Assembly (NCBI GenBank): GCA_029940245.1
Contig: JAOZRF010000023.1
Location: 1 to 13,456 of the forward strand
DNA: 13,456 nt
Source: Desulfobacula sp.
GTDB taxonomy: Bacteria; Desulfobacterota; Desulfobacteria; Desulfobacterales; Desulfobacteraceae
Direction: 5' to 3'
The translations under genes were made by a program, and so were the position numbers. The notes under the pieces are model-generated. The model had not been told where the DNA came from. It saw only the letters and a list, made by a program, of their open reading frames with translations, and did no database searches. Shown piece by piece: positions 637 to 13,456 of this stretch. How positions within the stretch are numbered: position 1 is the first letter of the stretch; the number at the start of each line of letters is the position of its first letter.

Positions 637-706
637 TTTTTATTGTAAGAAATGGCGAGTATGTTCGTCTAAACAGGTAGAATACATTTAAGGAAATAAA
701 GGACTG

Positions 707-2068
707 GTGATTTCAGTGAGCCATCGAATTTCTGAGAGATTGATTATTGTACTGCTTGTTTCTGCACTATTGACTATTTTTTTTGCAGGCGGATTACATG
801 CCCAGATTGCTCAGACAATAACTATATCATCCTCACCAAACCCTGTGGGCTCGGGAGCCAGAGCACTCGGTATGGGAGGGGCATTCATAGGGATTGCCGA
901 TGATGCAACTGCCGCATCCTGGAACCCGGCCGGCCTTATCCAGCTTGAAACACCTGAACTCTCCGTTGTGGGGGAATATAACAGCAGGACGGAAGACACG
1001 TCCTATACCGCCTTCCCCGAGGCATCCGGTCCTCAAAGGGTTTCCAGTTTTGAACTCAACTACTTCAGCCTGGCCTGCCCATTTAATTTCTTAAACTGGA
1101 ACATGATTGCGTCGTTAAACTTTCAGCACCTGTATGATTTCAACAAAAAAGTGGGGTTCAGCTATACGGATAACCCTTCTTCCGGACCGCCCCTGAGCCT
1201 TAAAAACAGCATTGATTACAAGCAGGAAGGGGGCTTGAGCGCCATTTCTCCAGCCTTTGCAGTTCAGATAACCCCTGAAATATCTTTTGGCTTTACTTTA
1301 AATTTCTGGGAGGATACATTTCAAGATAACGGCTGGAAATCTGTTTATAATTCCATGGGCACGGGAACATTTGCCGGTTTTCCCTTTACAGTCAAAACAA
1401 ATATCCGGGAAGAATACGAGATGAGCGGTTTTAATTACAATGCAGGGATCTTTTGGAATATTAACCATATATTTTCTATGGGTGCTGTATTTAAGTCACC
1501 GTTTTCTGCCAAATTAAAGCACGATTATAGTTCTGTCTCCTCTGTTACTTTCCCCACGGCGCCCGCATCCAACACTTCCAATAAGATCAATTATTCGGAA
1601 GAGGAAACCCTGGATATGGCTTATTCCTATGGATTGGGGCTTTCCGCACGGTTAAGCGATGCCTTGACTTTAGGTATAGATGTTTATCGTACGGAATGGG
1701 GAGATTATGTGCTTCATCGTGCAGATGGAACGGAAACAAACCCCATTACGGGAAAACTACAGAGTGAATCCGATATTTGCGCAACTACACAGGTCAGGAT
1801 AGGGGGTGAATATCTGATCATCGGGGAAAAAACGATAGTGCCGATTCGAGCAGGAATCTTTTATGATCCTGAACCATCAGAAAAAAATCCGGAAGATTTC
1901 TGGGGCATCAGCTTTGGCTCAGGAATTGCTTATAAGAAAATTGTTTACGATGTTGCTTATCAATACCGTTTCGGCAGGAATGTCAGAACAACGACGGTGG
2001 GCAATGAACCATCTCACCAGGATGTGGATCAGCACACGGTTTATATGTCCGTGATCTATCATTTTTAA
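707..2068 (+). CDS. PorV/FadL-like outer-membrane beta-barrel protein
   Basis: Predicted outer-membrane protein of 453 residues. It has a basic N-terminus, a hydrophobic segment at about 11-29 and a likely signal-peptidase I site after the HA at 31-32. The mature N-terminus carries the signature GARALGMGGAFIGIADDA (residues 50-67) and then SWNPAGL (71-77), typical of the PorV/PorQ and FadL/OmpP1 barrel families. The remainder alternates polar and aromatic residues as in beta-strands, and the protein ends Tyr-His-Phe; a C-terminal Phe is usual for BAM-assembled barrels. The GTG at 707 follows AAAGGA (698-703) at a short 3-base spacing; the in-frame GTG at 716 is an alternative start. It is the first gene of the operon, 10 bases ahead of the lipoprotein gene, which suggests the two products work together at the outer membrane. 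The transported or bound substrate is unknown. Confidence 0.8.
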   Translation: MISVSHRISERLIIVLLVSALLTIFFAGGLHAQIAQTITISSSPNPVGSGARALGMGGAFIGIADDATAASWNPAGLIQLETPELSVVGEYNSRTEDTSYTAFPEASGPQRVSSFELNYFSLACPFNFLNWNMIASLNFQHLYDFNKKVGFSYTDNPSSGPPLSLKNSIDYKQEGGLSAISPAFAVQITPEISFGFTLNFWEDTFQDNGWKSVYNSMGTGTFAGFPFTVKTNIREEYEMSGFNYNAGIFWNINHIFSMGAVFKSPFSAKLKHDYSSVSSVTFPTAPASNTSNKINYSEEETLDMAYSYGLGLSARLSDALTLGIDVYRTEWGDYVLHRADGTETNPITGKLQSESDICATTQVRIGGEYLIIGEKTIVPIRAGIFYDPEPSEKNPEDFWGISFGSGIAYKKIVYDVAYQYRFGRNVRTTTVGNEPSHQDVDQHTVYMSVIYHF

Positions 2069-2073
2069 GGAGG
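2067..2073 (+). promoter_or_regulatory. Shine-Dalgarno site fixing the TTG start at 2079
   Basis: AAGGAGG overlaps the stop codon of the outer-membrane protein gene and sits 5 bases before TTG 2079. This strong site supports TTG as the real start and implies coupling to translation of the upstream gene. Confidence 0.8.
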
Positions 2074-2078
2074 AAGCA

Positions 2079-4100
2079 TTGAAGTTTGTGAGGAAAAGAG
2101 GGCTTGTTTTAATAATCCTTATTGCGTTGTGCCTGTTTTCCGGGTGTATTTCCTCTCCTGGGGAAAATCTCTATATTAAGGATAACAAGACCTATGGCGT
2201 GACAGAGGGGGCTTTTCGACACAGGTGGTGGAATTACTACGAGCGGGGGCTTTCTTTTGCAGATGGGCAATTTTTTCAGGAGGCCGTTTCAGATCTTAAG
2301 CAGGCTGCTAAATATAGGATAAAAGATCAGCGCAGAGCCAGAACTTACGGGATGCACTTTGTTGATTATTTCCCCCACAGGGAGTTGGGTATCGTTTATT
2401 ATCAGATGGGGAATCTAAAGGAAGCCGGAAGGGAATTGGAGCTTTCTTTAAACAATTTTCCTTCAGCAAAGGCCCGGTTTTATCTTGACAGAGTCCGTAA
2501 GGCTTTGATTGAGCATGAGGCAAAAGCAGCGCTGCCGCCACGGCTTACCTTAAGCTTCAAGGCCGATGAGATCTGGACGCGGGAAGACCCTGTGGTTGTG
2601 TCTGGTGTTGCCGAAGATGAACAATATGTAGCAGGCCTTTTTATCAGGGGCGTGCCCCTGTTTCTGGAAGGCTCACAAAAAAGGATTCCCTTTAAGAAAA
2701 GTCTGGTCCTTTCCCAGGGGCGGCACGCCATTGAGGTTGCGGCAAAAAATCTTTTGGGAAAGGTTACAAAAGATCGGGTGATTATCCATGTGGACCGGGA
2801 AGGACCCATGATTACGCTGGATGAAATACTGTTTGACGAAGCCGTATCAGGACGATCCGTAACAATTTTAGGCTCGATTTATGATGAAGCCGGCGTGTCT
2901 GAACTGAACATCAATGGCCGGTCGATTCCTGTTCAGGAGAGTAAAGAGTTTTTTTTCTCTGAAAGGTTCCTGGCAGACAAAAACGATTTTAAATTAAAAA
3001 CCAGAGATCGACTGGGAAACCAGACATCCACCATTATTCCCCTTTCCAGTATCCAATCCACAACTCCAAATTCAGTACTAGTTGCCAGCGCAGATTCTGA
3101 TTTTACGGATTATCTTGTGGCCGGCATTTTTGGCACTAAAGATACCACTCCTCCATTAATAAAATTAAAGGGCTGGACGGACACGCAAACGGTGTTTCTG
3201 GAAAAAATATATCTTGAAGGGCAGATAAGTGACGAGGGCAATGTTGTGAGTCTTGAAGCAAATGGGGTTCCAATGCTGCGCCGCGAGGGCCGGGACATCT
3301 TTTTTAACCACCTTGTGGATCTGAAGGAAGGGGAAAATATTATTTTGCTTGAGGCCATGGACAAGACGGGCAATAAGGCAAGCAGGAAAATCTTTGTGAT
3401 AAGAAAGATTCCCCAGGCCCTCCAGCTTAGTGAGCGCCTGAGCCTGACTGTTTTTCCTTTTGAGAGAAAAGGAGCAGTTGCTCAAGGCGGTCTTTCCTTT
3501 CAGGATAATCTGATCGATAATCTGATTAATCAAAATCGATTCAGGATTGTTGAGAGGGATAAGCTTGATATTATTTTAAACGAACAAAAACTCAGCCGAA
3601 CAAAGCTGATCGACAAGAGCACTGCCTTGAAACTGGGCAGGTTAGTGGCAGCCCAGTCCATTATTGCAGGAAGTATTATTGAAACCGGCACGGGTATTGA
3701 GATAGTGGCCAGACTGATTGATACTGAGACATCCGAGGTACTGGCTGCAGAGGATGTCTATGACGAAGTTAAAGATCTTCCTGCATTAAAATCTCTGGCT
3801 GAAGGGATGGCCGTTAAATTTCACAGGGACTTTCCTTTAATGGAGGGTCTGATTCTTCAGAAAAAGGGCAAATACATATTTACGGACTTGGGGCAGGGCA
3901 GGGTAAAGATCCAGAGGCGGTTAATCGTCTATCGCGAGGAGCCTGTAAAACATCCGGTTACGGGAAAAATAATTGGGTCAGATAACCAGATTATTGGACG
4001 CGCCCGTGTGACCCAGGTTATGCCTGAGATGTCAAAAGCTGAGCTTCTGGATGCCGGAGACGAATCTATCAAACCTCTAGACAAGGTTATAACTGAGTGA
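2079..4100 (+). CDS. Lipoprotein with TPR, Ig-like, CsgG-like and FlgT-C-like domains
   Basis: Exported lipoprotein of 673 residues. A KFVRKR N-terminus, a hydrophobic core and the lipobox FSGC give lipidated Cys23; the residue after it is Ile, so the lipoprotein should go to the outer membrane. Residues ~50-145 are TPR-like helices. Residues ~155-440 hold about three Ig-like or glucodextranase-B-like beta domains, each ending in a pattern such as 'vDREGP', 'rDRLGN' or 'mDKTGN'. Residues ~455-590 resemble CsgG/FlgO-type domains (VFPFERKG, then RFRIVERDKLD, then LGRLVAAQSIIAGSI, then ARLIDTETSEV). Residues ~590-655 resemble the FlgT C-terminal domain (GKYIFTDLGQGRVK, then ITGK-like and GRARVTQV). 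CsgG-family proteins form or stabilise outer-membrane assemblies. The same two-domain module ends the protein at 5466-8657, which suggests the two interact. Its stop overlaps the GTG start of the sigma gene. Function is not known. Confidence 0.8.
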   Translation: MKFVRKRGLVLIILIALCLFSGCISSPGENLYIKDNKTYGVTEGAFRHRWWNYYERGLSFADGQFFQEAVSDLKQAAKYRIKDQRRARTYGMHFVDYFPHRELGIVYYQMGNLKEAGRELELSLNNFPSAKARFYLDRVRKALIEHEAKAALPPRLTLSFKADEIWTREDPVVVSGVAEDEQYVAGLFIRGVPLFLEGSQKRIPFKKSLVLSQGRHAIEVAAKNLLGKVTKDRVIIHVDREGPMITLDEILFDEAVSGRSVTILGSIYDEAGVSELNINGRSIPVQESKEFFFSERFLADKNDFKLKTRDRLGNQTSTIIPLSSIQSTTPNSVLVASADSDFTDYLVAGIFGTKDTTPPLIKLKGWTDTQTVFLEKIYLEGQISDEGNVVSLEANGVPMLRREGRDIFFNHLVDLKEGENIILLEAMDKTGNKASRKIFVIRKIPQALQLSERLSLTVFPFERKGAVAQGGLSFQDNLIDNLINQNRFRIVERDKLDIILNEQKLSRTKLIDKSTALKLGRLVAAQSIIAGSIIETGTGIEIVARLIDTETSEVLAAEDVYDEVKDLPALKSLAEGMAVKFHRDFPLMEGLILQKKGKYIFTDLGQGRVKIQRRLIVYREEPVKHPVTGKIIGSDNQIIGRARVTQVMPEMSKAELLDAGDESIKPLDKVITE

Positions 4101-4714
4101 AATTTTCTGTTGAGGAAGATCGGCAGTTGTTATTCAGATGTTTTTCCGGAAACAGGAAGGCAACAGAAATCCTGGTTCGGCGATTTTCAGACCTTGTTTA
4201 CCGATCTGTCCAATATACCCTTATGAATAAACAGGTTTCTTTTAATAAATATGACCTTGAAGATCTCCACAACACCATATTTTTACGACTTTTTGAGCAT
4301 GAATACAAAAGGCTTCGGCAGTATCAGGGTAAAAATGGGTGCTCCCTTGGGTCATGGATCAGGACTGTCGCAGTGAGAACAGTGCTGGATCATCTTAGGA
4401 AAAAAGGTCTTGATGCCATGGTATGGCAGAAAAAACTGGTGCCGATTGAACAGGCTTTTGGAATAACGCAAGATGAGATTGAACCATTGGCCGCAATGAA
4501 AAAGGAGGAACAAGGGCATTTACTCCAGGACGGAATCCAAAGCCTGTCCCCACGATATCAATTATTCATGCAGCTCCATTTTGACCATGAGCTTCCAGTT
4601 AAAGAAGTTGCTGAGGCTATGCAGTTGTCTATTGAACACGCCTATACTGTGAAACATCGGGCAATTCAGAAATTAAAAGTGTACGTGGCAGGGGCTATGA
4701 ATACTGAGGTGTAA
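4097..4714 (+). CDS. ECF-type sigma-70 family RNA polymerase sigma factor
   Basis: Sigma factor of 205 residues with only regions 2 and 4, as in the ECF group. Region 2 spans ~20-105: DLEDLHNTIFLRLFEHEY matches the -10-recognising helix area, and GSWIRTVAVRTVLDHLRKK is the typical end of the region. Region 4 spans ~145-196: LSPRYQLFMQLHF, then a helix-turn-helix (LPVKEVAEAMQLSIEHAYTVKHRAIQKL in outline) for the -35 element. The GTG start shares GTGA with the stop of the lipoprotein gene and has no Shine-Dalgarno of its own, so it probably depends on translational coupling. A zinc-finger anti-sigma-like protein follows, as is common for ECF pairs. The regulon cannot be read from here; no convincing self-type ECF promoter was found in the window. 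Confidence 0.88.
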   Translation: MKFSVEEDRQLLFRCFSGNRKATEILVRRFSDLVYRSVQYTLMNKQVSFNKYDLEDLHNTIFLRLFEHEYKRLRQYQGKNGCSLGSWIRTVAVRTVLDHLRKKGLDAMVWQKKLVPIEQAFGITQDEIEPLAAMKKEEQGHLLQDGIQSLSPRYQLFMQLHFDHELPVKEVAEAMQLSIEHAYTVKHRAIQKLKVYVAGAMNTEV

Positions 4715-4786
4715 GAAAAAAAGAATCTTTACGTCTATATGAGTAGAAATTAATTTTTTTTAGACTATGTTTCAACGGAGTTTGTT

Positions 4787-5476
4787 ATGGAAATATTATG
4801 CTCGTATGATGAAATGCTTGCGGATTATTTTGAAGGCCGTCTTTCTGATGAAGATAGAATCGAGATGGAAGCACATCTCTCAAAGTGTAATCTCTGCCGG
4901 GAAACGCTTGTGGCTGTAAATGGTGTTGTGCGGGGCCAGAGCCGGTTTCAACTGGAGGATGCGCCAAAGGAAGTGACCGAGGCTGCAGTATGTCTCATCA
5001 ATAAGCAGATTTGCGTATCGTGCGAGCCCTTGATACAAAGAGTGAGGCGATTTGTTATTGGCATGCCCTTTTATAAAATGCTGAACAGTCTGTACACAAA
5101 AATATCGGAATTTTTTACAACGCCCTGGGCAGGGTGGCGACTTGCACCGATTCGAGGTTCCGAGCGAACAATATCCAAAGATCTTATTAACGTCAGGAAG
5201 CGCTTTAATGGGATTGAAACAGAGATCGAAATCGAAAAAACAGGACACAATAAGGCGCGCATCCGCGTAGAATTACCGGAATATGACACGCAAAAAAAAA
5301 AGCTCCGGGTTACCCTGAAAAGAGATGACAGAGAGATTTCTTCATTTCTCTTGAATGTAGATCGCGTGTTTTTTGAAGACATACCTTTTGGCCATTACAG
5401 CTTAATCTTTGTCAGGGATGATGCAAAGATAGGAACATACCTTTTTGAGATCAGGGAAACTCGTCATGATGGATGA
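4787..5476 (+). CDS. Soluble zinc-finger (zf-HC2-like) anti-sigma factor candidate
   Basis: Protein of 229 residues, well started at ATG 4787 with GGAG 6 bases ahead. Residues 1-40 match the anti-sigma zinc-binding fold: Cys5, then YFEGRLSDEDRIEMEAHL, with His30-x3-Cys34-x2-Cys37, close to the zf-HC2 pattern. Further cysteines lie at 69, 76 and 79. Residues ~145-225 look like a small beta-sandwich (VELPEY, then KKLRVTLKRDD, then FEDIPFGHYSLIF). I see no convincing membrane segment, unlike many anti-sigma factors of this class, so it should be cytoplasmic. It lies between the sigma gene (72 bases upstream) and the cyclase-CHAT gene (11-base overlap), so it probably holds the sigma factor inactive. 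It is also the best candidate substrate or partner of the CHAT protease. The anti-sigma role is inferred from the finger and the gene order. Confidence 0.75.
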   Translation: MEILCSYDEMLADYFEGRLSDEDRIEMEAHLSKCNLCRETLVAVNGVVRGQSRFQLEDAPKEVTEAAVCLINKQICVSCEPLIQRVRRFVIGMPFYKMLNSLYTKISEFFTTPWAGWRLAPIRGSERTISKDLINVRKRFNGIETEIEIEKTGHNKARIRVELPEYDTQKKKLRVTLKRDDREISSFLLNVDRVFFEDIPFGHYSLIFVRDDAKIGTYLFEIRETRHDG

Positions 5477-8400
5477 TAAGACAAAAGAGGCAGGGGATAA
5501 ATCAAACAATATTGAAGGAATCCTGAGGGAGCGTGATCGTCTGGATCAGATACTTTCGGATCGGTTCAAAAAAGAAGTAGTCATTCTTTTCAGTGATATA
5601 TGCGGCTATACACAATATATAGACACAAAGGGTGATATCAGCGGTAGGGCCATGCTTAGGAGACATAATGATATTGTTTTGCCTCAGATTAAAAAACACA
5701 ATGGCGTGCTTATTAAGACGATCGGGGATGCTGTTATGGTTTCCTTTTCAACATCATTGGATGCGATTAAAGCTGCCATAGAAATCCAGAACGATTTGTA
5801 TGAATATAATAACAAGTCAGGGGCTAAAGACAGTATTCGTGTAAAGATCGGGATCAACGTCGGGGAAGCCCTGGTGGAGGAGTCTGATGTCTATGGGGAT
5901 GTTGTCAATGTTGCCTCTCGTATCCAGTCCGAGGCCGGACCGTATCAGATACTGATATCCAGGGTGGTTTACGATCAGGTTCGAGGAAGAGATGATATTC
6001 TCTGCAGATCCCACGGAACAGCCAAGGTAAAGGGTAAAGCCGAGAACTTGGAACTCTACAGGGTGGTTTGGGGAGACGAGGATATTCTTTCCGATGCTGC
6101 ACCAAAGGTTCGATCCTATGGGGCCGAGGGTGAAAAGATAGCCAGGCAGCCTTTTAAAGTGCTTCATCTTGAGGTTACCCGGGAGGGAGAGCGACTGAAG
6201 ATCAGTGCCTGTGAGCAGATGACAGGTGAGGCGAGCACAATCCGGCACTATGAAGAGATACCAGCTTCCATAGACTGGATTGAAAAACAATGCCTTGAGA
6301 TGGTGAATATTTTGAATAATGCCAGTCGCAGGGGCAGTGTTCCCCGCGATATACTGGTAAAACTTAGAGAAGTCGGGCAGGTCTTTTACGACGAGCTATT
6401 CACGCATACTGTCAAGGAGAAGATTAAGAATACCACTGCAGAATATTTAAGCCTTAACCTTGATGATCGACTGGTTCAGATTCCCTGGGAATTACTCAAT
6501 GATGGCCGGCAATTTCTCTGCCAGCGCTTTAACATGGGACGATTGGTCAGGACCCGGCAGACTGTTCCGGGCATCAAGACCCGGATATTGGCGCAGCCAC
6601 TTAAGATGTTGATATTGGCTGATCCCAAGGGTGATTTAAAGGGAGCCTATGCCGAGGGTACGCAGGTGCGCGATCATATGGATAAGGATAAGGATCTGAT
6701 TGATGTATCTCTGCATTCCGGCGAGATCACTTCTGATTTTATAAAGGGAAAGATTAGAAATTTTGACTTTGTACACTTTGCCGGTCATGCAGATTACAAT
6801 TCGGAAAATCCGGGAGAAAGCGGATGGCGATTGACCAAAGGTACCTTTAAAGCCAGCGATATTACAAAAATGGGCGGTGCTGCCGCCATGCCCGCTCTTA
6901 TTTTTTCAAATGCATGCCAGTCGGCCCGCACCAATGAATGGGCCTTAAAAGGGCGTTTTCAGGATGAGATATTTGGATTGGCCAATGCCTTTCTGATAAC
7001 GGGTGTAAAACATTATGTGGGAACCTTCTGGGAGATACTGGATGAACCGAGCAGTTATTTTGCCCTGGAATTTTATAAACAATTATTTTTGGGAAAAACA
7101 ACGGGCGAAGCCATAAAAAATGCGCGAAATGCTCTGATCAAGCAATACGGAGAAGAAAACATAGTCTGGGCAAGTTATCTTTTGTACGGAGACCCCACTT
7201 CCAATTACATGGATCAAATTAAAGGGGTCGGAGAATATGACAAGCCTGCTGCCCGGATTCCACAGGAAGGAAAACCCGGGGCTGCCCGTATTTCTAACGC
7301 AGATGCAGGGGTCAGGGCCAGTGAAGAGGTTATAGATTTTTCCGGAGCCGAGGTTTCAAGAAAAAAAAGGGGCTGGTGGGCCGTGGCAGCCGGGATTATC
7401 CTGTTGGTCGCTGTAATGCTTTGGGGTTATCCCGGGCTGTTGAGACAGGGGACCCAAGAATATGAAAAGGCGGCCCTGGCCTATTACAGTCAGGGTAATT
7501 TCAAAGAAGCATTGAATGCCTGCAATCTTATCGAGGATAAAAGCCCGGATGTTCGTCTGCCTTATCTGATTGCAGGAAACATCTCTTTGAGAAAGGGAGA
7601 TTTGAATGCGGCGAAAGCCTCCTATCAAAGTGCGCTTGCCGCCACAAATGGCACAGATTCACAAAAGGCCGAAGCCTTTGCCGGTCTGGGCCGTATTGCT
7701 TCACTCCAAAAACAGCCGGACGCAGCCCTGAAGTATTATCAACAGTCCACGGATGCAGCCCCGGAGAGCAGCATGGGATACTTGTCCCAGGCACTTTTGC
7801 TTGAAGACAGCGGAAATTATAACCAGGCCCTGGGACTGTTGGGAAAAGCCGGAAAATTTGCCCCGAAGGATCAGGCCCTTGCCGCGATTACGAGAGAAAC
7901 CCGCAGGAAAGTTGCTTTGGCAGGGGATCAGGAAAAACAGGAACGTATCGACAAAATGGTCAAGGACCTGCTGGAAAGTATGAAAACGCCCACCCGGGTC
8001 CTGCCTTCTGACAATTGGACTTCCCCACCCTTAACCCTGTGGCTGATGGATTTTGTAACCCATGGCTACTCCCTTCAGGAAGGAGATGACCGGTTGCTTG
8101 CCTCTGCCATTACAGATCAGATCATCCAGCACAGCCGGGTTCAGATAGTAGAGCGAGCGCTTCTGGATAAACTTTTGGGAGAATTAAAACTGAGTTCCTC
8201 TAAATTGGCAGATCCCGGCACTGCTTTATCGCTGGGAAGGATCATTGCGGCCAGGCTCATCATAAGTGGTAAGATCATCTACTCCGGGCCCCAGACCCAG
8301 GTATCACTGCGTGTTATCGAGATTGAGACAGGCAGGATTTCTGCCGCAGTAAGTGAATCCTTTGGAAGCGCCATGCCCGCGTCATTGCTGGCAGACAAAT

Positions 8401-8657
8401 TATCCAAAAATCTTTTGGAAAAATTAGACAAGCTCTACCCTCTTAGAACCAGGATATCAGAGATAGGAGACAGCGGGATCAGATTGAATGCAGGACAAAA
8501 GACCGGAGTCAAGGAGGGCCAGCGATTCAAGGTGATTGATAAAGATGTAATTCTAAAAGCAGTATCAGTTGAAGCGGACACAAGCCTTTCCAGAATAGTG
8601 GCAGGTAAAAATACTCTCCAGGAAGGCCTCCGCTTAGAAGCCATCAATGAAGAGTAG
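5466..8657 (+). CDS. Class III adenylate cyclase-CHAT protease-TM-TPR-CsgG/FlgT-C fusion protein
   Basis: Protein of 1063 residues from ATG 5466 (AGGGA 8 bases upstream; ATG 5469 directly behind it). An in-frame TTG at 5445 would add 7 residues but has poorer support. Order: (1) class III cyclase ~36-200 with metal-binding Asp44 (FSDICGY) and Asp88 (KTIGDA), adenine-selecting Lys84 and Asp141 (DVYGDVVNVASR), Asn148 and Arg152, all present, so adenylate cyclase is likely; (2) CHAT caspase-like peptidase ~230-578 with dyad His441 (HFAGHA) and Cys484 (SNACQS) and the final YGDPT; (3) KKR then one membrane span ~637-659, which by the positive-inside rule puts the N-terminal half in the cytoplasm; (4) about four TPRs ~664-800; (5) a CsgG-like domain ~853-990 and a FlgT-C-like end ~993-1063, both expected in the periplasm. 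It closes the operon with the sigma/anti-sigma pair. It looks like a transmembrane signal transducer with two cytoplasmic enzymatic outputs; its ligand and protease substrate are unknown. Confidence 0.85.
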   Translation: MMDDKTKEAGDKSNNIEGILRERDRLDQILSDRFKKEVVILFSDICGYTQYIDTKGDISGRAMLRRHNDIVLPQIKKHNGVLIKTIGDAVMVSFSTSLDAIKAAIEIQNDLYEYNNKSGAKDSIRVKIGINVGEALVEESDVYGDVVNVASRIQSEAGPYQILISRVVYDQVRGRDDILCRSHGTAKVKGKAENLELYRVVWGDEDILSDAAPKVRSYGAEGEKIARQPFKVLHLEVTREGERLKISACEQMTGEASTIRHYEEIPASIDWIEKQCLEMVNILNNASRRGSVPRDILVKLREVGQVFYDELFTHTVKEKIKNTTAEYLSLNLDDRLVQIPWELLNDGRQFLCQRFNMGRLVRTRQTVPGIKTRILAQPLKMLILADPKGDLKGAYAEGTQVRDHMDKDKDLIDVSLHSGEITSDFIKGKIRNFDFVHFAGHADYNSENPGESGWRLTKGTFKASDITKMGGAAAMPALIFSNACQSARTNEWALKGRFQDEIFGLANAFLITGVKHYVGTFWEILDEPSSYFALEFYKQLFLGKTTGEAIKNARNALIKQYGEENIVWASYLLYGDPTSNYMDQIKGVGEYDKPAARIPQEGKPGAARISNADAGVRASEEVIDFSGAEVSRKKRGWWAVAAGIILLVAVMLWGYPGLLRQGTQEYEKAALAYYSQGNFKEALNACNLIEDKSPDVRLPYLIAGNISLRKGDLNAAKASYQSALAATNGTDSQKAEAFAGLGRIASLQKQPDAALKYYQQSTDAAPESSMGYLSQALLLEDSGNYNQALGLLGKAGKFAPKDQALAAITRETRRKVALAGDQEKQERIDKMVKDLLESMKTPTRVLPSDNWTSPPLTLWLMDFVTHGYSLQEGDDRLLASAITDQIIQHSRVQIVERALLDKLLGELKLSSSKLADPGTALSLGRIIAARLIISGKIIYSGPQTQVSLRVIEIETGRISAAVSESFGSAMPASLLADKLSKNLLEKLDKLYPLRTRISEIGDSGIRLNAGQKTGVKEGQRFKVIDKDVILKAVSVEADTSLSRIVAGKNTLQEGLRLEAINEE

Positions 8658-8759: not shown

Positions 8760-10541
8760 ATGAAATATCCATATGGTATATCTGACTTTAAAAGCCTTAT
8801 CACAGAGGGGTATTTTTATTGTGACAGGACAGATAAAATTCCCCTGCTTGAGAGTACCAAGTCTCAACTATTCATCCGCCCCAGACGTTTTGGCAAGAGC
8901 CTTGTTCTTTCAATGCTGGAAAATTATTATGATGTGGCAAAAAAGGACGAGTTCGAGTCAATTTTTGGCAATTTAAAAATCGGGAAGAATCCCACTAAAT
9001 TGCGCAATTCATATTTTATTCTGAAGCTGGACTTTTCCTGCGTTGATCCTACTGGAAGCGCTGAAGAGGTGAAAAAGGCTCTGTTTAATCACATTAATGG
9101 TTGTATTGAAGAATTTTATGCTTTTTATAATTATAAAGGATATGAACTGTCTCAAATAAAAATCAATTTTGATGATGCTTTATACTCTTTGAAATCCCTT
9201 GTCAGTTCAGTTCGCATGACTCCATACCCGGTTTATCTACTAATAGATGAATATGATAATTTTGCTAATACTATAATGATGGGTGTGCAGAGCGCCAAAA
9301 AGAGGTATGAAGCTCTTGTGCATGACGAAGGACCTTTAAGAACTTTTTTCAAGGCTGTAAAATCTGCCACTTCAGGTTCCATGTTTGACAAAGTCTTTAT
9401 AACAGGGGTTTCACCTGTTGTCATGAGCGATATTACAAGCGGATATAATATTGCAAAGAATATTTATTTTGAGCCAAAATTCAACGACTTATGTGGTTTT
9501 AGAGAAAATGAGGTGCGCAGAGTAATTGAACAAGTTGTGGCTGAATGCAGCTTTGACGCAGAAAAAACAGATGAAGCCCTTAATTTAATGAAAACATATT
9601 ACAATGGATATCGTTTTGCATTTGGCCTGGATGAATATATTTATAATCCCACATTATGTCTTTATTTTTTTGAGCAGTTCCAGGAAATGTGCACTTATCC
9701 GAGAAAAATGCTGGATTCAAATCTTGCCGTGGACGAATCAAAGCTGGAGTATATTGCCCAGATTCCCGCTGGAAGAGATCTTTTAATGACTCTGGTGCAG
9801 AAAGATCAAGGTGTTGTTTTATCAGATATTGAAGATCGTTTTGGTATTAAGGAGATGCTGACGGACAAATCCAAAGACAACACATTCCTGGTTTCTTTTC
9901 TTTACTATTTCGGGGTATTGACGATTGCAGGTGAGACAGAAGAATTGCAGGTGATTTTAAAAGTTCCCAACCTGGTTATGAAAAGTCTTTATGTGGAGCG
10001 GTTACAGAAGATGCATCTACCGGAACCGGAAGACAGGGATGATGGCAGGGAAGCGGCAAAACTTGTATATCAAAAAGGAAAGATGGCTCCTCTGTGCAGA
10101 TTCATGGAGGAGAGATATTTCAAGGTATTTCATAACCGTGATTACAGATGGGCAAATGAGCTGACATTAAAAACAGCATTTCTGACCCTGCTTTACAACG
10201 ATATTATTTTTATCATGGATTCTGAAACCGAGATTGGCCGCCGCTATGCCGACCTTACCATGATCATCCGACCGGATAAAAGATATGGCAAAATATTTGA
10301 TATATTGATTGAGTTCAAGTTTGTAAAACTCAAAGATGCCGGAATAAGCGCTGAACAGGCAAGGCAGCTTTCTGAAAATGAGTTGGAACAGATTTCTGAA
10401 ATTGCAAAGCAGATAAAAGGTGGTGAAAAGCAGGTGCAGGAGTACGGCAAAAAGCTTGAACAAAGATATGGAAACCTCCGGCTGCAGAAATTTGTGGTCG
10501 TAGCCCTGGGGTTTGAAAGGGTGTGTTTTAAAAAGGTTTAG
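8760..10541 (+). CDS. Stand-alone AAA-ATPase-like/PD-(D/E)XK nuclease-like protein
   Basis: Protein of 593 residues matching the widespread AAA-ATPase_like plus PDDEXK_9-type family. Residues 4-48 carry the family hallmark: YGISDF, YFYCDRTDKIPLL and the Walker A variant RPRRFGKS (40-47), which in this family replaces the canonical GxxGxGKS. Walker B is YLLIDEYDNF (159-168; Asp163, Glu164), followed by FITGVSPV (213-220). The C-terminal nuclease-like core has Asp498 (ADLTMIIRP) and Glu518-x-Lys520 (ILIEFKF), then a helix rich in Gln and Lys. It is about full length for the family. It lies 102 bases after the operon with its own strong ribosome site, and its codon use is visibly more AT-rich than that operon, which suggests separate acquisition. 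Members are often highly multiplied in anaerobic bacterial genomes; the biological role is not established. Confidence 0.88.
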   Translation: MKYPYGISDFKSLITEGYFYCDRTDKIPLLESTKSQLFIRPRRFGKSLVLSMLENYYDVAKKDEFESIFGNLKIGKNPTKLRNSYFILKLDFSCVDPTGSAEEVKKALFNHINGCIEEFYAFYNYKGYELSQIKINFDDALYSLKSLVSSVRMTPYPVYLLIDEYDNFANTIMMGVQSAKKRYEALVHDEGPLRTFFKAVKSATSGSMFDKVFITGVSPVVMSDITSGYNIAKNIYFEPKFNDLCGFRENEVRRVIEQVVAECSFDAEKTDEALNLMKTYYNGYRFAFGLDEYIYNPTLCLYFFEQFQEMCTYPRKMLDSNLAVDESKLEYIAQIPAGRDLLMTLVQKDQGVVLSDIEDRFGIKEMLTDKSKDNTFLVSFLYYFGVLTIAGETEELQVILKVPNLVMKSLYVERLQKMHLPEPEDRDDGREAAKLVYQKGKMAPLCRFMEERYFKVFHNRDYRWANELTLKTAFLTLLYNDIIFIMDSETEIGRRYADLTMIIRPDKRYGKIFDILIEFKFVKLKDAGISAEQARQLSENELEQISEIAKQIKGGEKQVQEYGKKLEQRYGNLRLQKFVVVALGFERVCFKKV

Positions 10542-10795: not shown

Positions 10796-11563
10796 TTGAA
10801 AAACTATATATATTTTTTTATGATAGCGGTCTTTTGCTGGATATTACTGCATCCATTTGCGGCTAGCTGTTCCGGAGAAAATGGAATGGATATGACAGTT
10901 GAGGAAAATGCAATTCTAGAATGGGTCAATGCCTTAAGGGCAAAGGAGGGAATTGCCGAGGTAAAGATCGATCCTTTGCTGAACCAGGTGGCTTTAGAAC
11001 ACAGTCAGGATATGGCTGTAAAGAAAATATTGGACACTGGCCCGCCAGTGTATCAGACACCCTTTGAAAGGGCCTCCGGTAAAAGGCTGAGTGACATAAA
11101 TAATCTGGTTGTAGTGGCAACGGGTACTCAGGATGCCCTGAAAAACGTTATTCAATCAGATACGGGTGCAATAGAAAAATTGCTGTCACCTGCAATGACC
11201 CATATCGGAGTCAAGATATACTCTGCCGGGGATGACATAAGATGGTTGACCATTCACATGCTGGAGCGTGCCATCACATTTACGGGTTTTAAGTTGGAGA
11301 CACGCGCGGGTGTTACCATGGGGAAATTCATTACAATTCAGGGTGTCACGCCGGTTGCAAAGGTAAAGGTTGATATGATCTTTGATGGGGATATGGATAC
11401 AGAAGACTATGACCGCACAAAGATTGTCATTCCGGATTCAAAAGAGAGTTTTTCCGTGAGTTTTGATTTTGATCTCGGGGATGGGCAGTATGGTTTCCTG
11501 TTTTGGGTTTATGAAAACGGACAATATAGAAAGAGCAACTATTTTCATATTAAGGTCAACTAA
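10796..11563 (+). CDS. Diverged CAP/SCP-family exported protein
   Basis: Exported protein of 255 residues. The N-terminus has a hydrophobic segment (~5-22) ending AASC at 22-25; with Ala at -3 this is only a marginal lipobox, so either a lipoprotein (Cys25) or an ordinary signal peptide is possible. Residues ~36-160 follow the bacterial CAP (SCP/PR-1-like) pattern: ILEWVNALRAKEGI, then DPLLNQVALEHSQDMA, then THIGVKIY. His69 of EHSQDMA is the conserved cavity histidine, but the usual FSH segment shortly after it is absent and replaced by ILDTGP. Residues ~165-255 form a beta-rich C-terminal domain. The stop codon is directly followed by the ATG of the transglutaminase-like gene, so the two are co-expressed and probably act together outside the cytoplasm. 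CAP proteins bind lipids or act on cell-wall or protein targets in different lineages; none is evident here. Confidence 0.75.
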   Translation: MKNYIYFFMIAVFCWILLHPFAASCSGENGMDMTVEENAILEWVNALRAKEGIAEVKIDPLLNQVALEHSQDMAVKKILDTGPPVYQTPFERASGKRLSDINNLVVVATGTQDALKNVIQSDTGAIEKLLSPAMTHIGVKIYSAGDDIRWLTIHMLERAITFTGFKLETRAGVTMGKFITIQGVTPVAKVKVDMIFDGDMDTEDYDRTKIVIPDSKESFSVSFDFDLGDGQYGFLFWVYENGQYRKSNYFHIKVN

Positions 11564-12904
11564 ATGAAAAAATATATTATACTTTTATTTTTTATATGGA
11601 TTGCTGCAGGCATAAGCAACACTGCCTCGGCTAATATTTATTATTATTCCGGAACCATGGATGCAGCCTTTACTATGGAAGAGAATACTGCGATTTCCAT
11701 GCCTGACGGGGTCACAAAGTTTATTTACAACTATTCACTTCCCCAGAATTATGATTACAGCGTTAACAGCCAGAGTGCGGATTCTCCTCAAATTCTTTTC
11801 AATCCTCAGCCAAGTTCATCTGAAATCAAGACTGATGAATTTGGAAATAAATACGCTGAACTGATCTGGAACAACCCTGCATCTGGAACTATTACCGGTA
11901 CAGTCACATATTCCATTAATACCACGGCAGACTGGGATAAATTTGTGACAAGCGATCTGTTTCCAGTTAAAAGCAATCTAATTCCCCAGGATGTTGCGCA
12001 GTTCCTGGAGGCCACAGACCAGGTTCAGTCGGACAATGCCATGATTAAGTTACTGGCTGACGACCTGACCTATGACCCTGGTCAGCAGTGGCAGGCAGTA
12101 ACTGCCATATGCGGATGGGTCATGGATAATATTACTTATGGGACAAATTCGAATATTGATGCAGTTTCCACCTACACTGATAAAGTTGGCGTCTGCTCAA
12201 ATTATTCTCATTTGGCCTGTGCTATTTTGAGGGCTGCGGGAATTCCGGCAAGGTTTGTGGGCGGCCGTGCCTTGTCCAAATCCTATTCTTTGCCCTATCA
12301 AGGTGGAAGCAGCTTTTCAGGAGTCGACTGGAGTCCAAGTCTTCATGCCTGGATAGAGGTCTATTATCCATCGCTTGGATGGGTTCCCTACGAACCCCAG
12401 AGAGATCTTCATCATATAGACACCCACCGAATAACCCATGGAGCGGGAACGGATAACAGCAGTCTTATTTTCGGATCATCACAATGGTTTTATATGGGTG
12501 TTCCTCCTTCTTCATATCCGAGCATTTCTTCAGGTCCGGACACAATTACCTGGAATACTGATAATATTGATCTTGCCTATGTAAAAGAGAGTGATGAAAT
12601 TAATGCCACGGCTTTCAGTACCCCTGTTACTTTCATCTCTTCTAAAACTGTTAACCTGTCTTTAAACAAAGGTTGGAACCTGTTGAGTTCTGATATCGCA
12701 TTCAGCGTGACAGACAAGCTATCTGACGACTCCAAGTTTGCCAGCGTGTGGAAGTGGGAAGGCGGGGGCTGGGCCGTCTATCTGCCGGGTGAAGATGACG
12801 GTGGCGCTGACTATGCAGACAGTAAGGGCTTTACCGTACTTTCAAATATTGAGCCGGGAGAAGGGTGCTGGGTGAATGCAACACAGCAGACTACATTGGA
12901 TTGA
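11564..12904 (+). CDS. Secreted transglutaminase-like (cysteine peptidase fold) protein with C-terminal Trp-rich repeat
   Basis: Exported protein of 446 residues beginning at the base after the previous stop. The signal peptide is ~1-23 with cleavage after ASA. Residues ~28-135 form a beta-rich domain, as often precedes transglutaminase cores. The core (~155-300) matches the transglutaminase-like superfamily: WVMDNITYG, nucleophile Cys211 in GVCSNYS, AAGIPARFVGG, His261 in LHAWIEVYY, then GWVPYEP. The third catalytic position is Glu277, where the family normally has Asp. Bacterial members are peptidases, amidases or cross-linking enzymes, and the substrate cannot be told from sequence. Residues 370-446 are one Trp-rich repeat ending NATQQTTLD, nearly the same ending as the gene at the left edge. 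The shared C-terminal tail suggests a common anchoring, binding or sorting module. No terminator with a T-run follows. Confidence 0.82.
   Translation: MKKYIILLFFIWIAAGISNTASANIYYYSGTMDAAFTMEENTAISMPDGVTKFIYNYSLPQNYDYSVNSQSADSPQILFNPQPSSSEIKTDEFGNKYAELIWNNPASGTITGTVTYSINTTADWDKFVTSDLFPVKSNLIPQDVAQFLEATDQVQSDNAMIKLLADDLTYDPGQQWQAVTAICGWVMDNITYGTNSNIDAVSTYTDKVGVCSNYSHLACAILRAAGIPARFVGGRALSKSYSLPYQGGSSFSGVDWSPSLHAWIEVYYPSLGWVPYEPQRDLHHIDTHRITHGAGTDNSSLIFGSSQWFYMGVPPSSYPSISSGPDTITWNTDNIDLAYVKESDEINATAFSTPVTFISSKTVNLSLNKGWNLLSSDIAFSVTDKLSDDSKFASVWKWEGGGWAVYLPGEDDGGADYADSKGFTVLSNIEPGEGCWVNATQQTTLD
12671..12901 (+). repeat. Trp-rich repeat unit 3
   Basis: It opens GWNLLSSD as in type A, then has VWKWEGGGWAVYLPG and a PGEGCWVNATQQ ending as in the type B unit at 279. 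It therefore looks like an A front joined to a B end. It shares the 19-base identical stretch (12742-12760) with the units at 12 and 13083. Confidence 0.78.
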
Positions 12905-12951: not shown

Positions 12952-13083
12952 CCTGGGACCAGTTCATAATATAATAAGGAAACTAATAGATTATTATGAA
13001 AAAACTGTTTTTATCTATATTATTAATTCTTGTAATATGCGCACCATCCCTGGCGGATGAATTTAAGATTGAACTGGTCCAGG
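12952..13083. repeat. Long-spaced imperfect inverted repeat around the start of the last gene
   Basis: CCTGGGACCAGTTC (12952-12965) is the reverse complement of GAACTGGTCCAGG (13071-13083) apart from one extra G; 10 bases are perfect (12956-12965 with 13071-13080). The arms enclose the AAGGA at 12976-12980, the ATG at 12996 and the signal-peptide codons. In RNA they could pair and hold the start region in a large loop. Confidence 0.5.
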
Positions 13084-13456
13084 GCTGGAATTTGAAAAGC
13101 TCCAGGATTGCCATTACTATTGCTGATACCTTTTCCAGTTCTGATAGCTTTGCCAGCGTGTGGAAGTGGGAAAATGGCGGTTGGGCAGTCTATCTGCCGG
13201 GTGAAGAAACACAAGGAGGCTATGCGGAGTCAAAAGGCTTCACCACATTTTCAACGATAAGTCCGGGCGAGGGTTTCTGGGTAAACAGCAAGGGAACCCA
13301 GACCAGTGTAACGATAACTGGTACACAGGTGGATATCGATACCATATCCATGGTAGATGGCTGGAATTTGAAAGGTCTTAAAGCAGAAAGCTCCATAATA
13401 GTTTCCTCCCTTTTTGCAAATTCAACAAAATTTGCCAGTGTTTGGAAATGGGAGAG
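12996..13456 (+). CDS. Secreted Trp-rich two-repeat protein (3' partial)
   Basis: Open from ATG 12996 to the window edge (153 full codons, no stop), so the 3' end is missing. The N-terminus MKKLFLSILLILVICAPSLA is a clean signal peptide with likely cleavage after SLA (residue 20). A type A repeat follows (GWNLKSSR, VWKWENGGWAVYLPG, PGEGFWVNS; residues 30-98), then a Thr/Val-rich linker and the start of a type B repeat (GWNLKGLK, VWKWE; from residue 122). This A-linker-B layout copies the partial gene at the left edge, so the two are paralogues. The repeat starts only ten residues after the signal peptide, so the protein may consist mostly of repeats. AAGGA (12976-12980) lies 15 bases before the ATG, too far for a normal ribosome site, and a TAG at 12987 bars an in-frame upstream ATG. 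A TATAAT at 12970-12975 could be a -10 element, but no good -35 element accompanies it. Confidence 0.75.
   Translation, partial: MKKLFLSILLILVICAPSLADEFKIELVQGWNLKSSRIAITIADTFSSSDSFASVWKWENGGWAVYLPGEETQGGYAESKGFTTFSTISPGEGFWVNSKGTQTSVTITGTQVDIDTISMVDGWNLKGLKAESSIIVSSLFANSTKFASVWKWE
13083..13289 (+). repeat. Trp-rich repeat unit 4 (type A)
   Basis: Type A unit, GWNLKSSR to PGEGFWVNS. It contains the same 19-base stretch (13154-13172) found in the units at 12 and 12671. Confidence 0.75.
13359..13456 (+). repeat. Trp-rich repeat unit 5 (type B, cut by window end)
   Basis: It opens GWNLKGLK like the type B unit at 279 and reaches FASVWKWE before the window stops. Confidence 0.7.

Follow-up and report, generated by a model that had tools for sequence, protein, structure and literature searches.

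What joins an outer-membrane protein, a lipoprotein, a sigma factor, an anti-sigma factor, and a caspase-like protein in one tightly packed set of genes? We addressed this question in a 13,456-nucleotide stretch of DNA from Desulfobacula sp., positions 1 to 13,456 of contig JAOZRF010000023.1 (hereafter the window), which belongs to assembly GCA_029940245.1 (3.19 Mb, 79.5% complete). The five genes, denoted OMP, LIPO, SIG, ANTI, and CYC-CHAT, resemble an alarm system at the cell surface, shared by sulfate-reducing bacteria with some of their relatives. Based on sequence comparisons, we favor trans-envelope regulated proteolysis, with a probability of about 0.6: the membrane-bound CHAT protein would cut the soluble anti-sigma factor at Arg123 and thereby free the extracytoplasmic function (ECF) sigma factor to act at the promoters of exported proteins.

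An earlier note on this DNA had described five tightly packed genes and argued that they act as one unit. All five open reading frames (ORFs), on the + strand, are open and their Pfam domains agree with that description. The overlapping start and stop codons that the note had pointed to are both real, with LIPO and SIG sharing 4 bases (4097-4100) and ANTI and CYC-CHAT sharing 11 bases (5466-5476). The note had also proposed a search for the gene set in other genomes. The set recurs, its order is not confined to this genome, and since the same order is found across many genomes, it is not a product of chance. A single unit is nevertheless too simple a picture, because promoter-like sites that fit the sigma factor are located both before the operon (644-671) and in the gap between SIG and ANTI (4710-4737). 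Given the internal site, transcription probably has two sigma-driven entry points.

The CHAT protein and its candidate substrate

CYC-CHAT combines a class III cyclase domain (Pfam Guanylate_cyc, 6e-21), a CHAT domain (2.5e-29), a single transmembrane (TM) segment, periplasmic TPR repeats, and a CsgG/LpoB-like domain, the last two also matched by Pfam. The catalytic dyad of the CHAT domain is invariant (His441 in 56/56 rows and Cys484 in 54/54, two of the 56 rows lacking the Cys region). A TM segment follows the CHAT domain in 42 of the 44 relatives with a tail, and exactly one such segment is present in 38. The CHAT domain is therefore predicted to be cytoplasmic and the TPR/CsgG-like half periplasmic. 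When the CHAT profile was compared with solved structures, the best match was SAVED-CHAT (8tl0, E 4.5e-6, over 55 positions only), followed by weak matches (E 0.12-0.14) to chains labelled 'CHAT domain protein' (7x8a, 8d9f, and others), which we take to be the Craspase subunit. Outside the CHAT domain, the protein matched solved cyclase and TPR structures. Among the matches listed, its full-length relatives are 84, 54, and 52% identical.

ANTI is a zf-HC2 anti-sigma factor (Pfam zf-HC2, 4e-6 in the window protein). The zf-HC2 domain was found in 106 of 107 family members, and the protein carries the HxxxCxxC motif of zinc-binding (ZAS/zf-HC2) anti-sigma factors. Its N-terminal domain matches RsiW (5.5e-4) and chain B of 3hug (2.9e-5), its C-terminal domain gave weak beta-sandwich matches (EMC7_beta-sandw in 19/107 members at E up to 0.1), and matches of the family to solved structures were weak or partial. 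The protein appears soluble, as a hydrophobic segment is absent from it and from 34 of 37 relatives. The adjacent SIG is an ECF sigma factor: regions 2 and 4 of sigma70 were matched in Pfam, region 3 was unmatched in both Pfam and NCBIfam, TIGR02937 was matched at 8e-21, and the solved structures recovered were generic ECF/FliA chains. ANTI would be expected to bind and inhibit this cognate sigma factor.

In an alignment of 44 anti-sigma factors, from which identical sequences had been collapsed, two columns are fully invariant (44/44), Arg123 and Tyr204, the latter in the beta domain. The zinc ligands reach 43/44 and Cys5 41/43. Arg123 lies in the linker between the two domains (residues 85-131), where the best other column reaches 68% and the median is 20%. 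We extended this comparison to a hand-chosen alignment of 107 rows (A2), comprising the window protein, 73 of the 119 other listed database relatives (242 were above threshold), and 33 of 37 proteins from fetched loci. Arg123 was kept in 106 of 107 rows, the exception being L091, in which the Arg is shifted by two columns. The preceding residue is I or V in 103/106 and the following residue G or S in 100/106, while the spacing varies from 58 to 96 residues from the last zinc Cys and from 24 to 36 residues to Glu150. A further alignment (A4) comprised the window and 40 of 42 stretches. Because Arg123 is invariant within a linker that is variable in length and poorly conserved, it is a candidate cut site, and we predict that [IV]-R-[GS] at this position is cleaved by the CHAT protease.

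The envelope components

The remaining two genes encode parts that may sense events at the cell surface. OMP is an outer-membrane beta-barrel of the FadL/PorV kind (Pfam Toluene_X, 2e-17), with a signal peptide judged by eye. In NCBIfam it matched BamG (2.7e-23) and PorV_fam (6.8e-15), and it thus resembles PorV, BamG, and FadL barrels alike, although the PorV and BamG scores are under their curated cut-offs. For PorV the score was 55.4 bits against a cut-off of 90, and genes of the type IX secretion system were not searched for. LIPO has a lipoprotein motif (LFSG-C), a TPR-like start, one or more Ig-like domains, and a CsgG/LpoB/FlgO-like domain. Pfam matched CsgG (3.5e-13), LpoB, and Glucodextran_B, and more weakly FlgO and TPR. 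Solved structures gave only weak or partial matches to the LIPO family. The alignment of LIPO (A1) comprised 14 sequences and excluded L025 (partial LIPO), L029 (LIPO in two overlapping frames), and L036. CsgG and LpoB are matched in both LIPO and CYC-CHAT. The known roles of such domains are in curli export, activation of penicillin-binding proteins, and the flagellar ring, whereas here they occur in a putative signaling pair. A curli/CsgG secretion system was considered and rejected, as the CsgG profile was matched in part (positions 39-102 of 210) and no curli family was found by Pfam among the ten window proteins.

A shared promoter motif and predicted exported targets

The motif TGTAAGAAA-N13-CGTCTA has exactly three exact copies in the 3.19 Mb assembly: at 644-671, at 4710-4737, and on contig 211, where it lies 147 bases upstream of a gene encoding a 1243-aa exported protein. 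The exact site also precedes the OMP gene in two other loci (L042 and L044), and a site with one mismatch does so in a third (L050). In 94 related genomes the exact form (TGY) was found at six sites, all in three genomes with close anti-sigma relatives (G000, G003, and G044), compared to one for the reversed control. It was absent from the 83 related genomes without the anti-sigma family, from G018, in which the contig is cut inside ANTI, and from seven genomes with more distant anti-sigma factors.

A site near the start of ANTI was found in 24 of 37 loci, which was equalled by at most 3 of 100 shuffles. The -10 variants for this test were picked after earlier inspection of the sites, and the shuffles used the same choices. 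The sigma factors were found with three -10 types, CGTCTA/TGTCTA, TGTATT, and CATATA. We typed 25 loci by eye, excluding the remainder, and the nearest sigma relative had the same -10 type in 24 of them versus 10.5 in shuffles, with none of 2000 shuffles as good. Common descent alone could explain this match. We infer from the comparison of the motifs that SIG recognizes promoters of the TGTAAGAAA-N13-CGTCTA type.

We then analyzed the genes downstream of such sites. The first promoter pattern gave 32 sites in 14 of 24 genomes versus 3 for the reversed pattern, and the TGTATT form gave 24 sites in 6 of 6 genomes versus 0, nine of the 24 being in Desulfonema magnum. Downstream regions were examined for 20 of the 32 sites (the other 12 being operon sites) and for 22 of the 24, taking as the target whichever ORF was longest among those that start no more than 450 or 600 bases from the site. 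The first genes outside the operon were exported-like in 22 of 28 cases, compared to 188 of 587 background ORFs of the loci (P 6e-7). Our exported-like rule is a crude hydropathy rule of our own design that membrane-anchored proteins (L208) also satisfy. The P value omits sites before anti-sigma genes (L169 and L172) as well as the sites of genome G095, several of which are at contig ends or before very short ORFs. The predicted targets include a C25 peptidase with PKD domains, a cadherin/Big_9 protein, a laminin-G protein, an M23 peptidase, a PQQ-propeller/cohesin protein with a sub-threshold dockerin match, and, in two genomes, outer-membrane efflux (OEP) proteins.

Further sites were observed in individual genomes. 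G095 has 13 promoter sites, 12 of them outside the operon; they precede, among others, a type IV pilin-like gene, a PilM-like gene, and genes for two paralogous proteins of 586-589 aa (names assigned by eye). In L084, the promoter stands before two exported-protein genes (3345-3953 and 5672-7732), in one case with one mismatch. These genes lie near a CHAT-LIPO operon that lacks sigma and anti-sigma genes; a different contig of that genome carries an anti-sigma gene preceded by the promoter. Beside the operon in L096 (10840-12973), a 2-kb stretch contains five promoter-like sites that are almost identical (TGAAAGAAATTC...GCGTATA). This cluster was rejected as promoters of exported genes, as no exported gene lies downstream.

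Distribution and gene content

To describe the distribution of the operon, we refer to genomes by G numbers and to fetched loci by L numbers; the two collections overlap and loci may recur (e.g., L082/L028 and L121/L040). With the CHAT protein as query, 89 of 97 genomes had at least one match, most of them through generic cyclase domains; among the matches listed, far fewer were strong over the CHAT part. From the best CHAT matches listed, 20 regions were picked by hand. In 15 of them BLAST identified LIPO-SIG-ANTI-CHAT in order, two of the 15 with a cyclase. In the remainder, the anti-sigma factor was found by profile only (L040), the region is cut at contig ends (L006 and L008), or sigma is absent (L039 and L041).

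A scan anchored on LIPO found 141 relatives, of which 80 were kept, from Desulfobacterales, Syntrophobacteraceae, and other deltaproteobacteria; it also reached metagenome-assembled genomes labelled Nitrospirae, Nitrospinia, Schekmanbacteria, and others. SIG, ANTI, and CHAT are all present in 37 of the 80 loci and partly present in 14, while the other 29 lack all three. The 37 full sets follow either the order of the window (27) or SIG-ANTI-CHAT-[OMP]-LIPO (10), and three are from Nitrospirae (L064, L083, and L091).

The anti-sigma family was found at 20 places in 11 of the 94 related genomes (E up to 1e-15). A CHAT gene lies directly downstream in 19 of the 20, and the last place (G063:C968) is 275 bases from a contig end. 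The 8.03 Mb chromosome of Desulfonema magnum carries four full-length anti-sigma genes of this family. In the genus of the window, the family occurs patchily, in 3 of 26 genomes. Contig 44 of G044 carries a near copy of the operon, with the same promoter sites and a CHAT protein of 84% identity. Among the matches listed, the window CHAT protein is thus nearest to one from a different genus, those within its own genus being 54 and 52% identical. The patchy occurrence together with this closer relative suggests transfer.

The cyclase domain is variably present. In the window it has the metal-binding Asp pair, the substrate Lys/Asp, and the transition-state Asn/Arg motifs, and is predicted to be a class III nucleotide cyclase; these residues have assigned functional roles in such enzymes, the Lys being substrate-defining. 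We tallied 45 CHAT proteins with an intact N-terminus, excluding L069 and L093, in which it is missing. Fourteen have a cyclase as well as sigma/anti-sigma neighbors, 23 the neighbors only, 7 the cyclase only, and 1 neither. This tally fits two exchangeable outputs, with the cyclase as a dispensable second one. Of the eight genomes without sigma/anti-sigma beside CHAT, three have no anti-sigma match, four have only partial matches (mainly to the zinc finger), and one (G110) has a full-length anti-sigma gene with the promoter on a contig other than that of CHAT.

Proposed mechanism and comparison with known systems

In the proposed mechanism, OMP and LIPO would sense an event at the surface or in export and relay it to the TPR/CsgG-like half of the CHAT protein in the periplasm, and this periplasmic signal would activate the cytoplasmic CHAT protease. 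As conservation and linkage suggest, the protease would then cleave ANTI, the soluble zf-HC2 protein, after Arg123 within the linker that joins its two domains. The freed sigma factor would start transcription at TGTAAGAAA-N13-CGTCTA-type promoters, and its outputs would be the operon itself, the anti-sigma and CHAT genes as feedback, and exported, often very large, surface proteins. Where a cyclase is present, it would provide the second output. The earlier note had proposed envelope sensing answered by transcription and possibly cyclic AMP (cAMP). Its first part holds, in that a trans-envelope set appears to feed an ECF sigma factor; cAMP is not the core output, as 23 of the 45 CHAT proteins lie beside sigma/anti-sigma genes and have no cyclase, and 7 have a cyclase without such neighbors. 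The note had also cast the CHAT protein as the transducer. The domain is present as it said, but neither its nature as a protease nor the adjacent anti-sigma factor as the probable substrate had been named.

In the RseA/DegS and RsiW systems, an envelope signal leads to proteolysis of the anti-sigma factor and release of an ECF factor. Both are cited as regulated proteolysis in PMC10028731. The window differs from them in that its anti-sigma factor is soluble, and so is not a membrane anti-sigma factor, and that the membrane-spanning part belongs to the protease. A closer likeness is found in Craspase/CASP, a type III-E CRISPR system of Desulfonema ishimotonii with the TPR-CHAT protein Csx29, the anti-sigma factor Csx30, and the ECF factor CASP-sigma, in which the activated CHAT protease cuts the anti-sigma factor (PMC10028731). 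Both loci unite a CHAT protease, an anti-sigma factor, and an ECF sigma factor, and the His/Cys dyad of such a protease is intact here. In contrast to Craspase, the window operon has no Cas effector, its CHAT domain continues into a membrane segment and a periplasmic half with TPR and CsgG-like parts, its anti-sigma factor is of the zf-HC2 kind with another candidate site, and its predicted regulon consists of exported proteins. Neither a Cas7-11/gRAMP effector nor a CRISPR array was found in the window, as judged by Pfam on its ten proteins and a repeat search. Two more type III CRISPR systems are described in PMC11229360 and PMC11417357. One is SAVED-CHAT, with a CHAT protease in a proteolytic cascade; it is the best solved match of the window CHAT family, but is soluble and activated by cyclic triadenylate (cA3) through its SAVED domain. 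The other is CalpL/CalpT/CalpS, in which a SAVED-Lon protease cuts an anti-sigma factor and frees an ECF factor, the protease being of the Lon type and activated by cyclic tetraadenylate (cA4).

By analogy, we read the operon as a non-CRISPR, trans-envelope switch with Craspase-like logic built from CHAT, anti-sigma, and ECF parts. It may represent an undescribed chromosomal family in which CHAT cuts an anti-sigma factor at an invariant Arg to control surface proteins, a housekeeping counterpart, and perhaps the source, of the type III-E switch, though we put this somewhat short of an even chance. As the earlier note had held, no described system with this gene set turned up in our literature searches, in which most subscription papers lie outside coverage, so that absence is no proof.

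Alternative explanations

Several observations weigh against regulated proteolysis. Arg123 could have a structural role, presumably like Tyr204. It is not established that CHAT proteases cut after Arg; Csx30 is cut between residues 427 and 429 (PMC10028731). Eight of the 45 CHAT proteins have no neighboring sigma/anti-sigma genes, with the dyad kept in all seven that are readable; CHAT must therefore have other partners or roles there. Among the 80 LIPO loci, the 29 without sigma, anti-sigma, and CHAT are in many cases on short contigs, but the flanks are long in L056, L081, and L107, so that LIPO can also stand on its own. No convincing site was found before the anti-sigma gene in 13 of the 37 loci. 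In the Desulfobacula genome, the loose pattern GTAAG-N15-17-CGTCTA occurs 3 times versus 7 for reversed controls, and with two mismatches allowed the counts are 5 versus 25 (3 versus 1.44 expected within the window). As these looser patterns do not beat the reversed controls, only the full exact form carries weight. Finally, 6 of the 22 TGTATT sites (L205 and L215-L219, with L218 masked) and 5 of the 12 sites examined in G095 are not before an exported-like gene, while 7 of the 12 are.

The strongest competitor is partner switching without proteolysis, which we consider unlikely though worth weighing. Here CHAT would sequester or allosterically displace the uncut anti-sigma factor, and Arg123 would be a binding residue. 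The tight linkage and the invariant Arg suit a binding site equally, and the dyad is retained even without a nearby anti-sigma gene. However, an Arg followed by a small residue in a poorly conserved linker of variable length is more like a cut site, and all 54 proteins keep the dyad Cys. A somewhat less probable explanation, which builds on the cAMP answer that the earlier note had thought possible, is that the operon mainly produces a cAMP signal from the cyclase half, with sigma and anti-sigma as a parallel, independently controlled branch. The cyclase is present in 21 of the 45 CHAT proteins, including 7 of the 8 without neighboring sigma/anti-sigma, and the window cyclase has its metal and transition-state motifs. 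Yet it is absent from 23 of the 37 loci with sigma/anti-sigma, and the substrate Lys is replaced by E, D, or V in eight cyclase-bearing loci (L006, L025, L044, L045, and L049-L052).

It is highly improbable that the operon is a phage-defense device akin to the CRISPR-associated CHAT/anti-sigma/ECF switches. The three-part logic is that of Craspase/CASP (PMC10028731), and PADLOC gave distant matches to PycC cyclases, TPR proteins, and BovA. Against this, no CRISPR array or cas-like gene was seen in the window, the operon includes periplasmic and outer-membrane parts, and the predicted regulon consists of exported surface and outer-membrane efflux proteins. A defense system was rejected, the PADLOC matches being weak and partial and the window having no CRISPR array.

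Features of the window and neighboring genes

The coordinates of the operon and its features are given in Table 1.

Table 1 Genes, domains, and predicted sites of the five-gene operon in the window.
Feature	Positions	Strand	Remark
Predicted ECF promoter TGTAAGAAA-N13-CGTCTA, before the operon	644..671	+	Exact match
OMP gene	707..2068	+	Open reading frame confirmed
LIPO gene	2079..4100	+	Open reading frame confirmed
SIG gene	4097..4714	+	Open reading frame confirmed
Predicted internal ECF promoter TGTAAGAAA-N13-CGTCTA, before ANTI	4710..4737	+	Exact match
ANTI gene	4787..5476	+	Open reading frame confirmed
Arg123 codon	5153..5155	+	Candidate cleavage site I-R|G
CYC-CHAT gene	5466..8657	+	Alternative TTG start at 5445 possible
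Class III nucleotide cyclase domain (predicted)	5571..6056	+	Pfam Guanylate_cyc; FSDICGYT, KTIGDAVM, GDVVNVASR
CHAT (caspase-like) domain	6369..7193	+	His441 codon 6786-6788, Cys484 codon 6915-6917
Single TM segment, residues 640-658	7383..7439	+	Hydropathy
Periplasmic CsgG/LpoB-like domain	8085..8339	+	Pfam LpoB 1.7e-6, CsgG 5e-6

Genes on both sides of the operon (3-521, 12647-12904, and 12996-13454) contain repeats of the form GWNL...VWKWE...GFTVLSxIxPGEGFWVN. The exported protein on contig 211, downstream of the third promoter copy, has GWNL...GFWVN repeats like those of the window genes at 3-521, 11564-12904, and 12996 onward. No Pfam family was matched by the two partial repeat genes. 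Downstream of the operon, secreted CAP-domain and transglutaminase-like proteins are encoded at 10796-12904 and are kept in G044 (73 and 70% identity); no exact promoter match was found upstream of their genes. An AAA-ATPase_like/PDDEXK_9 gene (8760-10541) lies between the CHAT and CAP genes and has no counterpart in the near copy (L024/L042). There, the CAP and transglutaminase genes directly follow the CHAT gene, so the gene appears to have been inserted in the window.

Implications

To our knowledge, few bacterial CHAT proteases have a proposed substrate. Here, a conserved gene pair comprises a protease and its candidate substrate, for which the predicted cut is narrowed to one residue, and a readable promoter names the target genes. 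If the proposed proteolysis is correct, caspase-like enzymes outside CRISPR would join those that release sigma factors by regulated proteolysis of anti-sigma factors, and the CRISPR version could have been drawn from a natural setting unrelated to immunity. It would also give sulfate-reducing bacteria a control circuit for very large exported proteins.

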